From NCBI GenBank assembly GCA_021792365.1, contig JAJYUT010000003.1:744001-808000 (forward strand): a DNA stretch of 64,000 nt. Reading direction: 5' to 3'. Below are positions 57,396 through 60,808 of this stretch, one piece after another. The position numbers and the translations under genes are program-made. The stretch comes from Pseudomonadota bacterium (GTDB lineage: Bacteria > Pseudomonadota > Alphaproteobacteria > Dongiales > Dongiaceae). The notes under the pieces were generated by a model. It was not told the DNA's origin. It worked only from the letters and a program-made list of their open reading frames with translations, and did not search any database. How positions within the stretch are numbered: position 1 is the first letter of the stretch; the number at the start of each line of letters is the position of its first letter.

Positions 57396-57578
57396 ATGCT
57401 GACCACCATCCTCAAACTTGCTGCCCTGGCCAGTTTCGCCGCTTCGATCGCCGTGATCGTCATCTATGTTCCGGACCCCTCCTTGATCGCGGTCGTCGTC
57501 ATCGTCATCGCGATGGCGGCCTATGATTTCCTGGTCCGTCCGATGCTGATCCGCAACGGCAACAACCATCACCGCTGA
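57396..57578 (+). CDS. Small two-helix membrane protein
   Basis: A 60-residue hydrophobic protein that starts 3 bases after the amidase stop. Two membrane helices are predicted (LKLAALASFAASIAVIVIYV and LIAVVVIVIAMAAYDFLV) with a short PDPS turn and a basic tail ending RNGNNHHR. I do not recognise a family. It ends just before a strong hairpin terminator, so it is the last gene of the TRAP-amidase unit if it is real. The ribosome-binding site is weak. Confidence 0.55.
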   Translation: MLTTILKLAALASFAASIAVIVIYVPDPSLIAVVVIVIAMAAYDFLVRPMLIRNGNNHHR

Positions 57579-57587
57579 CGAAATGAA

Positions 57588-57622
57588 AACGGCTGCCCGT
57601 TGAGGGGAAACGGGCAGCCGTT
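57588..57622. terminator. Bidirectional hairpin terminator
   Basis: AACGGCTGCCCGTT (57588-57601) and AACGGGCAGCCGTT (57609-57622) pair perfectly over 14 bases around a 7-base loop. It lies between convergent genes ending at 57578 (plus) and 57654 (minus). A-rich flanks on the left would give a U-tract for minus-strand transcripts. Confidence 0.85.
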
Positions 57623-57653
57623 ACATCGATAAGCAGGGATTCGGGGTGAGCGG

Positions 57654-57908
57654 TTAGTCCCAGTCCCAAACCGGCTTACCGAAATTGAGGTCGTCGGAAT
57701 CCGTCAGCGCGCCGGTCGCCGCGCCCGCGGCGCCGCCAAACAGCGCGCCGCCGACCGGATGTCCGACCATCGCGCCGCCCAACGCGCCGGCACCCGCGCC
57801 GATGCCCGCGCCCGTCAGGGCGCGATCGCCTTCGCTGTGACCGCAAGCCGAAAGGCCGGCACCGATCGCCACCACCGTAGCCATGGACACCATCTTCATC
57901 GCGCGCAT
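57654..57908 (-). CDS. Glycine-zipper lipoprotein
   Basis: An 84-residue precursor with a lipoprotein signal: basic start (MRAMKM), hydrophobic core and lipobox LSAC (Cys22). The mature part is a glycine-zipper region (GAGIGAGAGALGGAMVGHP and GALFGGAAGAATGAL) and a short acidic end (KPVWDWD). It would be anchored in the outer membrane. GGAG precedes the ATG at 57908; the second ATG is at 57899. A relaxed EcfG-type promoter (minus) lies 45 bases upstream, suggesting envelope-stress induction. Confidence 0.8.
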   Translation of the reverse strand: MRAMKMVSMATVVAIGAGLSACGHSEGDRALTGAGIGAGAGALGGAMVGHPVGGALFGGAAGAATGALTDSDDLNFGKPVWDWD

Positions 57909-57953
57909 CTGGACTCTCCTCGTGACTGTTCCTGTCCGGTCGCGTGCCTTGAG

Positions 57954-57978
57954 AACACGCCGGTTGCATCTTGGTTCC
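57954..57978 (-). promoter_or_regulatory. Relaxed EcfG-type promoter for the glycine-zipper lipoprotein
   Basis: On the minus strand: GGAAC, 16 bases, TGTT. It ends 45 bases before the start at 57908. The same TGTT variant precedes sodB and the 111-residue gene. Confidence 0.45.
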
Positions 57979-58143
57979 GGGGCGCGCCGTGGCAAGGCAC
58001 GAGTGCGTGACTCGCCTCGATGTCGCTACAACGTTGAAGCCAGACGCTTCATCATGCGCGATGCGCCGCCATCAACTCGCTGTGAGAGTCCGTCGCGCGA
58101 GCAATTATGGCGGGAATGTGGCCGCGACACCGACTACGGCTCA

Positions 58144-58905
58144 TCAGCGATTCGCGCGCTTTCCGGTACGCTGTCGCGCCTCCTCCAGCGCGGCGCCTTC
58201 CGGACTGTCAAGAGCCTCCGCCGCCGCACGGCCACCGCTCTCCGCCGCACCGGACTTGGCGAAGGAATGCTGCGCCTCCTGGTAGTTGCGCGCCGACAGC
58301 CAATCGCCCTCGCCACGCAACTCGAATTGCTCCGCCGCGAACGTCCAGTTCGCCAGGTTCTTCAGGAAGGCATCGATGAACTTCGGCCGCTCATTCTGGT
58401 AGTCGAGATAGTACGCGTGCTCCCACACATCGCAGGTGAGGAGCGCCTTCGCCCCCTGCAGCATCGGCAATTCCGCATTCGCGGTCGTCACCACCTTCAA
58501 ACTCTCGCCATCCAGCGCCAGCCATGCCCATCCGCTGCCGAACTGCTTGGCCGCCTTGTCAGCGAATTCCTTCTGGAAGGCATCGAAGCTGCCGAAGTCC
58601 TTGTCGATCTGCCGCTTCAAGTCGCCGCTCGGCCCGCCGCTTCCGTCCGGGGTCAGGCAATACCAGAAGAAGGAATGGTTCCAGTGCTGCCCGGCATTGT
58701 TGAAGACCCCCCAATCCTTCTGCCAGCTCTTCTGGATGATCTCGCCGAGCGAGAGATCCGCATAGGGTGTCCCCTCGATCGCCTCGTTGAGCTTGTCGAC
58801 ATAGGTCTTGTGATGCTTGCCGTGATGGAACTTGAGCGTCTCAGCCGAAATGTGCGGGCTGAGCGCGTCCAGGTCGTACGGCAGATTGGGAAGGGTAAAG
58901 GCCAT
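58144..58905 (-). CDS. sodB: Superoxide dismutase, Fe type (C-terminally extended)
   Basis: A 253-residue Fe/Mn superoxide dismutase. Metal ligands are in SPHISAETLKFHHGKHH (first His), AGQHWNHSFFWYCLTP (second His), and DVWEHAYYLDYQN (Asp and His). Gln in AGQHW and the FGSGWAWL segment favour iron. The catalytic core is about 200 residues; an additional 50-residue tail (from about 204) is Ala/Glu/Arg-rich and has no recognised function. It contains no LGxGxL encapsulin-targeting motif. A relaxed EcfG-type promoter lies 83 bases upstream. It is divergent from the encapsulated ferritin and encapsulin genes, so iron storage and superoxide defence may respond together. Confidence 0.92.
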   Translation of the reverse strand: MAFTLPNLPYDLDALSPHISAETLKFHHGKHHKTYVDKLNEAIEGTPYADLSLGEIIQKSWQKDWGVFNNAGQHWNHSFFWYCLTPDGSGGPSGDLKRQIDKDFGSFDAFQKEFADKAAKQFGSGWAWLALDGESLKVVTTANAELPMLQGAKALLTCDVWEHAYYLDYQNERPKFIDAFLKNLANWTFAAEQFELRGEGDWLSARNYQEAQHSFAKSGAAESGGRAAAEALDSPEGAALEEARQRTGKRANR

Positions 58906-58987
58906 GACGTCTCACCAATAAAACAAGTTGTCAGAAGGAATTTCCCAGCCTCGAGCGCGGCTGACACACGCCGCCGCGCAGAATCTA

Positions 58988-59012
58988 AACAAGCCGCCGG
59001 AAAACCCGTTCC
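58988..59012 (-). promoter_or_regulatory. Relaxed EcfG-type promoter for sodB
   Basis: Minus strand: GGAAC, 16 bases, TGTT. The minus-10 is 83 bases before the ATG at 58905. It faces the exact plus-strand site at 59030. Confidence 0.45.
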
Positions 59013-59029
59013 GAGCGATCCGGAACAGC

Positions 59030-59054
59030 GGAACTACGGTAATTCCCAGGCGTT
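59030..59054 (+). promoter_or_regulatory. EcfG-type general-stress promoter for the encapsulin operon
   Basis: GGAAC (59030-59034), 16 bases, CGTTTA (from 59051): exact match. It lies 98 bases upstream of the encapsulated ferritin start, so the transcript would carry a leader with a strong hairpin. Confidence 0.65.
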
Positions 59055-59080
59055 TAACGGAGGCCGTTTAAGGGAGCGAC

Positions 59081-59097
59081 CCCCGGGCATCCCGGGG
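59081..59097. promoter_or_regulatory. Hairpin in the leader of the encapsulated-ferritin mRNA
   Basis: CCCCGGG-CAT-CCCGGGG forms a seven-pair stem with a three-base loop, 55 bases before the start codon and 27 bases after the minus-10. It has no U-tract, so it is more likely a regulatory or stabilising structure than a terminator. Confidence 0.45.
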
Positions 59098-59152
59098 CCA
59101 CGCCGTAGGCATCCCCAATGCCGCGAGGAAAGTCCATCGCCAGGGAAGTCCG

Positions 59153-59542
59153 ATGTCGAGTGAAATGCTGCACGAAGCCGCCGAGAAACTCTCGCCCGCG
59201 ACCATTGACCGCCACCGCGCCACCGTGTCGCTGATGGAGGAGCTGGAGGCGATCGACTGGTACGACCAGCGCATCGACGCGGCCACGGATCCCGAGTTGA
59301 AGGAGATCCTGCGGCACAATCGCGACGAAGAGAAGGAGCATGCCGCCATGGTCCTGGAATGGCTGCGGCGGCAAGATGCGGTGTTCGACGAGCAGCTCCG
59401 CACCTACCTCTTCAAGGAAGGCGACATCATGGCGGTCGAGGCCGCGGCCGAGGCAGCCGAGGCGGGCGGGTCCACCGAGGCTAAGGTCAACCACGGATGC
59501 CTCGGGATCGGCGATCTCAGGCGTGAGGAGGTGACGCCATGA
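59153..59542 (+). CDS. Encapsulated ferritin (encapsulin cargo)
   Basis: A 129-residue ferritin-like protein of the EncFtn type. Two antiparallel helices carry ferroxidase ligands at positions equivalent to the Rhodospirillum rubrum protein: Glu30 (LMEELEAIDWYDQR), Glu60 and His63 (RDEEKEHAAM). The C-terminal peptide CLGIGDLRRE (residues 116-125) is the targeting sequence that binds the inside of the encapsulin shell. Such proteins assemble as decamers and oxidise Fe(II) for storage. GGGAAG precedes the ATG. Its stop overlaps the encapsulin start by four bases (ATGA), giving coupled synthesis of cargo and shell. An exact EcfG-type promoter lies upstream. Confidence 0.94.
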   Translation: MSSEMLHEAAEKLSPATIDRHRATVSLMEELEAIDWYDQRIDAATDPELKEILRHNRDEEKEHAAMVLEWLRRQDAVFDEQLRTYLFKEGDIMAVEAAAEAAEAGGSTEAKVNHGCLGIGDLRREEVTP

Positions 59543-60405
59543 ATCATCTGCTGCGCGAGCTCGCGCCCCTCACCGGCGGCGAGTGGAAGGCGATCGACGA
59601 GGAGGCGAAGCGCACGCTCAAGATCAACCTGGCGGCCCGTCGCCTGGTCGATTTCTGCGGTCCCCACGGCTGGCAGACCTCCAGCATCAATCTCGGAAGG
59701 GTAAAGGACGTCGGGGCCGAGATCCGGCCCGGCGTCGAAGTCCGGCGTCGCCGGGTCCAGCCGCTGATCGAACTGCGGGCGCCATTCGAACTGTCGCGCG
59801 CCGAACTCGACATCATCAGCCGGGGCGGCGGCGATTCGGATCTGCGGCCGGTGACCGAGGCGGCGCGGACGATTGCGATCGCCGAGAACCACGCGGTGTT
59901 CAACGGATTCGCGGCCGGGCGCATCACCGGCATCCTCGATCTCACCCGGGAAAGCGCCCTCGCCCTGACAGACGATTACGTGCGCTATCCCGAAGTGGTG
60001 GCGGAGGCGCTCGGCAAGCTGCGGAACCTGGGAATCGACGGACCCTATGGCATCGCCCTCGGCCCGCGTTGCTATATCGGGCTCACCGAGACGACCACCG
60101 GCGGCGGCTATCGCGTCTATGACCACGTCAAGCGGCTGCTGAACGGGCCGCTGGTCTGGACGCCGGGAATCGACGGGGCCATCGTGGTTTCCCTGCGCGG
60201 CGGCGACTTCGAGCTCACGGTGGGCGAGGATTTCTCGATCGGCTATGTCAGCCACACCGCGGACACGGTGCGGCTCTACCTGGAGGAGAGCCTGACGTTT
60301 CGCGTGCTCACCCCCGAAGCGGCGGTGGCGCTGCGCTATCGCAACAACCATGCAGAGTTGGCACCGCCGGGGAATGCGACCGGGAAGCAACCCGGGGCGG
60401 AGTGA
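59539..60405 (+). CDS. Encapsulin shell protein, family 1
   Basis: A 288-residue protein with the HK97-like phage capsid fold of family 1 encapsulins (linocin M18 type). The N-terminus NHLLRELAPLTGGEWKAIDEEA forms the helix that binds cargo peptides. Later blocks are FCGPHGWQTSSINLGRV, PLIELRAPFELSRAELD, ENHAVFNGFAAGRITGI and GPRCYIGLTETTTGGGY, and a C-terminal F(S)IGYVSHTADTVRLYLEES. Shells of this size class (T=1, 60 subunits) are expected, about 24 nm across. A C-terminal tail of about 20 residues extends beyond typical members. The partner cargo gene lies directly upstream. Confidence 0.95.
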   Translation: MNHLLRELAPLTGGEWKAIDEEAKRTLKINLAARRLVDFCGPHGWQTSSINLGRVKDVGAEIRPGVEVRRRRVQPLIELRAPFELSRAELDIISRGGGDSDLRPVTEAARTIAIAENHAVFNGFAAGRITGILDLTRESALALTDDYVRYPEVVAEALGKLRNLGIDGPYGIALGPRCYIGLTETTTGGGYRVYDHVKRLLNGPLVWTPGIDGAIVVSLRGGDFELTVGEDFSIGYVSHTADTVRLYLEESLTFRVLTPEAAVALRYRNNHAELAPPGNATGKQPGAE

Positions 60406-60418
60406 GTCCCGGCTGAGG

Positions 60419-60444
60419 GGAACTCTCCACCCGCGACATCCGTT
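60419..60444 (+). promoter_or_regulatory. EcfG-type general-stress promoter for the DUF1328 protein
   Basis: GGAAC (60419-60423), 17 bases, CGTT (60441-60444): exact match. It lies 69 bases upstream of the ATG at 60514. Confidence 0.6.
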
Positions 60445-60513
60445 CACATAGCAAGCCGCGCTCAATCCGCCTGCCGGGTGAAATGAGCGCGGGACCCGGA
60501 ACGGAGAACCGGT

Positions 60514-60687
60514 ATGCTGTATTGGGCGTTGCTTTTCCTGGTGATTGCGATCGTTGCCGGCATTTTTGGCTTTGGTGGCATCGCGGCGACCGCTTCCAGC
60601 ATCGCACAGGTGTTGTTCTTCATCTTCCTGGTGCTGTTCGTCGTCAGCCTGTTCTTCGGCTGGCGCGGCAGATCACCCGGACCCTGA
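60514..60687 (+). CDS. DUF1328 (YtjA-like) small membrane protein
   Basis: A 57-residue protein with two membrane helices. It starts [20 protein letters not shown] and has the conserved [20 protein letters not shown], then a short C-terminal tail (GWRGRSPGP). This is the DUF1328 pattern of small inner-membrane proteins common in stress regulons. GGAG precedes the ATG and an exact EcfG-type promoter lies upstream. Function unknown. Confidence 0.85.
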
Positions 60688-60808
60688 CGCAGGAATAAAG
60701 TTTGAATGGCGGCGGCACTCGCCAGCACGTACCGCCGTCGGCCCGTGGCAAGCGCGCGAAAAAGCGATCAAGCGGCAGCAGGTCCCTCCCCCCGAAGCTG
60801 CCGCCCTG

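Follow-up and report, generated by a model that had tools for sequence, protein, structure and literature searches.

Predicted EcfG-type control of an encapsulated ferritin operon in a Dongia relative and in other Alphaproteobacteria

Rhodospirillum rubrum is reportedly the source of the first structures of encapsulated ferritin (EncFtn) and the species in which this iron store was first studied. In its EncFtn-encapsulin system (Rru_A0973 operon; PMC5012862), the cargo gene lies directly before the shell gene, and the cargo carries an LGIG.L targeting peptide and three ferroxidase ligands, given as the iron/ferroxidase ligands Glu32, Glu62 and His65 in that paper. A search of the paper for promoter or operon control found nothing. 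The EncA/EncB/EncC system of Myxococcus xanthus likewise places ferritin-like cargo in an encapsulin that stores iron and is tied to oxidative-stress protection, and PMC11202242 reports up-regulation of the encapsulin under oxidative stress. It differs from the locus described here in its cargo subfamily, in its distant shell (EncA ranks far lower among solved shells) and in not being controlled by EcfG, which PMC3892343 describes as confined to Alphaproteobacteria.

The EcfG (ECF15) regulon of Sphingomonas melonis Fr1 (PMC6599016) resembles the present case in its GGAAC-N17-20-GTT motif and its PhyR-NepR-EcfG control. Catalases and DNA-binding ferritin-like proteins belong to this regulon, while encapsulin, unlike here, is nowhere mentioned in the text of the paper. 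The EncFtn encapsulins are well known, and so is the EcfG response; a class-wide regulatory link between the two appears to be undescribed. The encapsulin papers examined discuss structure and function and report no promoter or EcfG-type control. The original prediction had presented such control as apparently undescribed. A literature search found no text joining encapsulin and EcfG; subscription papers and supplementary regulon tables lay outside its scope, and an unremarked listing may exist. Here we compare an EncFtn locus of a Dongia relative with these systems, and elaborate on its predicted promoters and their recurrence in the class.

The EncFtn-encapsulin locus

The window, i.e. the whole stretch of DNA analysed (64,000 nucleotides), lies in an alphaproteobacterial genome, that of a soil bacterium related to Dongia. 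The genes considered are the following:

57654..57908, minus strand: probable lipoprotein, small, with a glycine zipper (YMGG); its start codon is uncertain (PF13441, 6.4e-8)
58144..58905, minus strand, divergent from the cargo gene: Fe/Mn superoxide dismutase (SOD), 253 aa (PF02777, PF00081)
59153..59542, plus strand: EncFtn cargo, 129 aa (PF22277, TIGR04535, solved relatives, alignment with R. rubrum EncFtn)
59539..60405, plus strand: family 1 encapsulin shell, 288 aa (PF04454, NF041155, 9ry4)
60514..60687, plus strand: DUF1328 membrane protein, 57 aa (PF07043, 1.5e-15)

The cargo belongs to the EncFtn family by its matches to the Pfam EncFtn-like model PF22277 (1.5e-40; 137.3 bits, cut-off 27) and to TIGR04535 (142.9 bits, cut-off 125), and its best solved relative is the 33bf/5da5 family (E 2.4e-44). 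It is 84% identical to a homologue from Dongia deserti, the closest named relative in the homologue search, and 63% identical over the aligned length to R. rubrum EncFtn. Its residues Glu30, Glu60 and His63 align to the R. rubrum ligands Glu32, Glu62 and His65, and its C-terminus CLGIGDLR (LGIG.L) resembles the SLGIGSLR-type targeting peptide of shell-linked relatives, so that both a targeting peptide and an adjoining shell gene are present. The shell protein is of the HK97 type (PF04454, 9.4e-85; family 1 encapsulin model NF041155, 306.6 bits, cut-off 100), and the solved shell nearest to it is 9ry4 (E 9.8e-93). The sequence ATGA at 59539-59542 combines the cargo stop with the shell start; in this 4-base overlap of the two genes the window is unlike R. 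rubrum. The product of the divergent gene has both Fe/Mn SOD domains (PF02777, 3.2e-37; PF00081, 6.9e-32), and it may be of the Fe or the Mn type, because the top NCBIfam match (Fe type) scores below its own cut-off.

The full ferroxidase set, the targeting peptide, the overlap of stop and start, and the identities of the shell and SOD genes had all been proposed from the letters of the sequence, and each is borne out by the alignments and family models. Judged by the identities of cargo and shell and by the ferroxidase and targeting residues, the locus is an encFtn-enc nanocompartment operon, from which we infer particle assembly and the physiological role of the nanocompartment.

Predicted EcfG-type sites in Dongia

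Four predicted EcfG-type promoters accompany these genes:

57954..57978, minus strand: GGAAC-N17-GTT (TGTT), before the glycine-zipper gene, kept in three Dongia genomes
58988..59012, minus strand: GGAAC-N17-GTT (TGTT), before the SOD gene, kept in three Dongia genomes, the spacer having diverged
59030..59054, plus strand: GGAAC-N16-CGTT, before the EncFtn-shell operon, kept in three Dongia genomes, with class-wide equivalents
60419..60444, plus strand: GGAAC-N17-CGTT, before the DUF1328 gene, kept in three Dongia genomes

The original prediction had named two of them, an exact EcfG promoter at the cargo gene and a relaxed one facing SOD, and had missed the outer two (57954-57978 and 60419-60444). 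Both of the named sites are present. Since the published EcfG motif of S. melonis is GGAAC-N17-20-GTT (PMC6599016), both qualify as EcfG sites, and the word relaxed does not really apply to the second. The exactness of the first carries little weight as evidence: the pattern GGAAC-N16/17-CGTT is not enriched genome-wide (95 matches, against 111 for a reversed control), so that a single exact match proves little. The promoter case is strong because it is carried by comparison across species, the match in a single genome being weak.

For this comparison, 35 kb were aligned to two other Dongia genomes, in which 5 motif sites could be mapped. Four of the five are kept in both sister species, whereas 89 permuted motifs keep 0.11 sites on average and never more than 2. 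The four lie within 2.5 kb, their targets being, in order, the glycine-zipper protein, SOD, EncFtn and the DUF1328 protein. The sites of SOD and of EncFtn preserve both motif blocks, with a diverged spacer between them. The conservation of four sites in three Dongia species thus points to a small predicted stress-regulon island. A sigma-70 promoter scan of 57550-60720 found none.

The DUF1328 product is a 57-aa membrane protein, for which the kept EcfG-type site suggests a general-stress function. The glycine-zipper probable lipoprotein likewise has an EcfG-type site upstream that is kept in the three Dongia genomes.

PhyR, NepR and EcfG are encoded together at a single locus of the same genome (L032). 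A two-way GGAAC-N18-GTT site lies in the space separating phyR from nepR, and four other Dongiaceae have such a site too. The near-palindromic two-way EcfG-type sites of the phyR-nepR intergenic region are the following:

L032, 1217-1244
L209, 688-715
L210, 966-992
L211, 827-853
L212, 1054-1081

One such near-palindromic element could therefore drive both phyR and nepR-ecfG. With the regulators encoded in the genome and a conserved GGAAC-N16..20-(C)GTT upstream, the operon has the features expected of a predicted EcfG-regulon member.

Among the loci examined (flanks 1.5-5 kb), a SOD gene adjoins encFtn only in the three Dongia genomes, and adjacency was rejected as a general rule. Within the Dongiaceae, 9 of 16 SOD genes unlinked to encapsulins (L190-L200) carry the motif within 250 bp upstream, compared with 1.6% of background sequence windows from those loci, which suggests family-wide stress control of SOD. 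It could be argued that only the EncFtn operon is stress-controlled, and that the SOD site is inert and merely results from the sharing of the intergenic region: it ends in TGTT rather than CGTT, and the SOD gene adjoins encFtn in Dongia only. We consider this unlikely, given that the site is preserved in three species despite its diverged spacer and that more than half of the unlinked SOD genes have a site of their own. Because unlinked SOD genes often carry the motif, SOD and the encapsulated ferritin look like separate stress targets that share an intergenic region in Dongia. Of the proposed tie between iron store and SOD, the EcfG-type sites hold, and the gene adjacency is limited to Dongia.

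EncFtn operons across the Alphaproteobacteria

EncFtn loci were collected from named genomes, the family, a class sample of 385 genomes and the R. rubrum family. The motif GGAAC-N16..18-GTT was sought over the 200 bp leading up to the cargo gene, after removal of near-identical upstream regions. In the first set of non-redundant alphaproteobacterial EncFtn+shell operons, 27 of 36 carry the motif, compared with a mean of 0.25 and a maximum of 2 in base shuffles, and an unbiased search of the same 36 operons ranked it top of all 5-mer/gap/3-mer dyads. With the R. rubrum family added, the motif precedes 30 of 45 operons. It precedes 5 of 57 EncFtn genes without a shell gene in the class, and 1 of 38 EncFtn+shell operons from outside it. 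The corresponding Fisher values (7e-10 and 3e-10) are indicative: with phylogenetically related loci they overstate independence, even after the removal of near-identical upstream sequences. The controls come from the same protein family or the same class, so neither base composition nor cargo ancestry alone explains the difference.

In all 30 matches the spacer before GTT is 17 or 18 nucleotides, in 25 a C precedes GTT as in the EcfG -10 element, and in 24 the motif lies at -58 to -123. In four Reyranella-like loci its distance to the assumed start codon is as short as 34 bp; here the start codon or the promoter may be misplaced, or the transcript may be leaderless. The R. rubrum operon carries GGAACCCCCAGGGCGCGTGGGCGTT, a GGAAC-N17-GTT site, at -66, and its genome, assigned through a 100% identical EncFtn, has a strong NepR match. 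In contrast to the window, the 1.5 kb of flanking DNA examined there showed no SOD gene. The wiring of encFtn to predicted EcfG-type sites thus recurs in many Alphaproteobacteria including R. rubrum, with the SOD gene next door only in Dongia.

GGAAC-like -35 elements occur in many ECF groups, and the genomes studied contain several ECF-like matches, which would allow the promoters to serve another ECF sigma factor, RpoE-like or peroxide-responsive, instead of EcfG. This is a decidedly improbable reading, because the CGTT -10 in most of the 30 sites is the EcfG form, the published EcfG motif is GGAAC-N17-20-GTT (PMC6599016), and the same two-block site lies between phyR and nepR-ecfG in the Dongiaceae. 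Control by EcfG, the stress sigma factor of the original prediction, is supported at the level of sequence by conservation in Dongia, class-wide recurrence, near-absence in the controls and the presence of PhyR, NepR and EcfG.

The strict motif is absent from 15 of the 45 operons. In a post hoc division by shell type, it occurs in 27 of 34 operons with a close shell and 3 of 11 with a divergent one. Universality of the site in alphaproteobacterial EncFtn+shell operons was accordingly rejected, the divergent-shell operons (∼30% identity, FTIG/LTIG targeting peptides) being mostly without it even where NepR is present. Several genomes of motif-less operons have NepR, and some of these operons have near matches such as GCAAC-N16-CGTT; a loosened pattern lifts the controls as well (38/45, with 17/57 and 4/38 in the controls).

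One alphaproteobacterial genome (G081) encodes, beside its EncFtn encapsulin, a second encapsulin with DyP peroxidase cargo (L259, 441-2307). No EcfG site was found upstream of it, and on this single case the idea that encapsulins in general are EcfG targets was set aside. Many Alphaproteobacteria also have a short EncFtn homologue (∼95-106 aa) without a targeting peptide or nearby shell gene (loci L127-L179 and L231-L243), mostly without an EcfG site.

Iron regulators and the proposed stress response

Control by iron alone, in which Fur, Irr or RirA would govern the operon and SOD and the GGAAC/GTT matches would be coincidental, is very improbable, even though ferritins and SODs are commonly iron-regulated and the boxes of alphaproteobacterial iron regulators are varied and poorly defined: in the intergenic region (58906-59152), the top-scoring candidates for Fur, Irr, Mur and RirA-like sites are at shuffle level (94 to 186 of 200 shuffles equal them), and coincidence is countered by the motif counts in operons and controls (30/45 vs 5/57 and 1/38) and by four kept sites in 2.5 kb. 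The search for a Fur/Irr/RirA operator in this region found none above shuffles using consensus strings, which weak or unusual sites could escape; the Fur-alone alternative to the original prediction is disfavoured on this and on the comparative result. Additional iron control on top of stress control is possible.

We put the probability that the encFtn-enc operon and the SOD, DUF1328 and glycine-zipper genes are targets of the general stress response via EcfG at roughly 85%, and from the promoter sequences we infer that the control of nanocompartment and SOD by EcfG is direct. Under stress, PhyR captures NepR and frees EcfG, as is established for Alphaproteobacteria. If the same happens in the Dongia relative, EcfG-RNA polymerase would start at GGAAC-N17/18-GTT before encFtn-enc and before the SOD, DUF1328 and glycine-zipper genes. 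By the biochemistry of their families, SOD would convert superoxide to H2O2, while EncFtn would oxidize Fe(II) and the shell store the iron, leaving less Fe(II) for Fenton chemistry. The two outputs would be complementary: one would lower superoxide, and the other would take away the Fe(II) with which the peroxide so formed would react.

For the class as a whole, we think it somewhat probable that EncFtn nanocompartments are core general-stress equipment in much of the Alphaproteobacteria, made under EcfG rather than mainly induced by iron. The shell-less relatives would not be part of it, so that gain of the shell would have accompanied gain of stress control, and in Dongia the operon would have become part of a small stress island alongside SOD. 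An EcfG site would then set encapsulated EncFtn proteins apart from free ones by regulation. The triggers of encapsulated ferritins in their native hosts appear to be little studied, and the conserved site predicts when the compartments form, namely under general stress, under starvation and in response to similar signals relayed by PhyR. Since R. rubrum carries the same site, the idea is directly testable in a laboratory strain. If it is true, cultures grown without stress may contain few of the compartments, or the compartments may be overlooked there.
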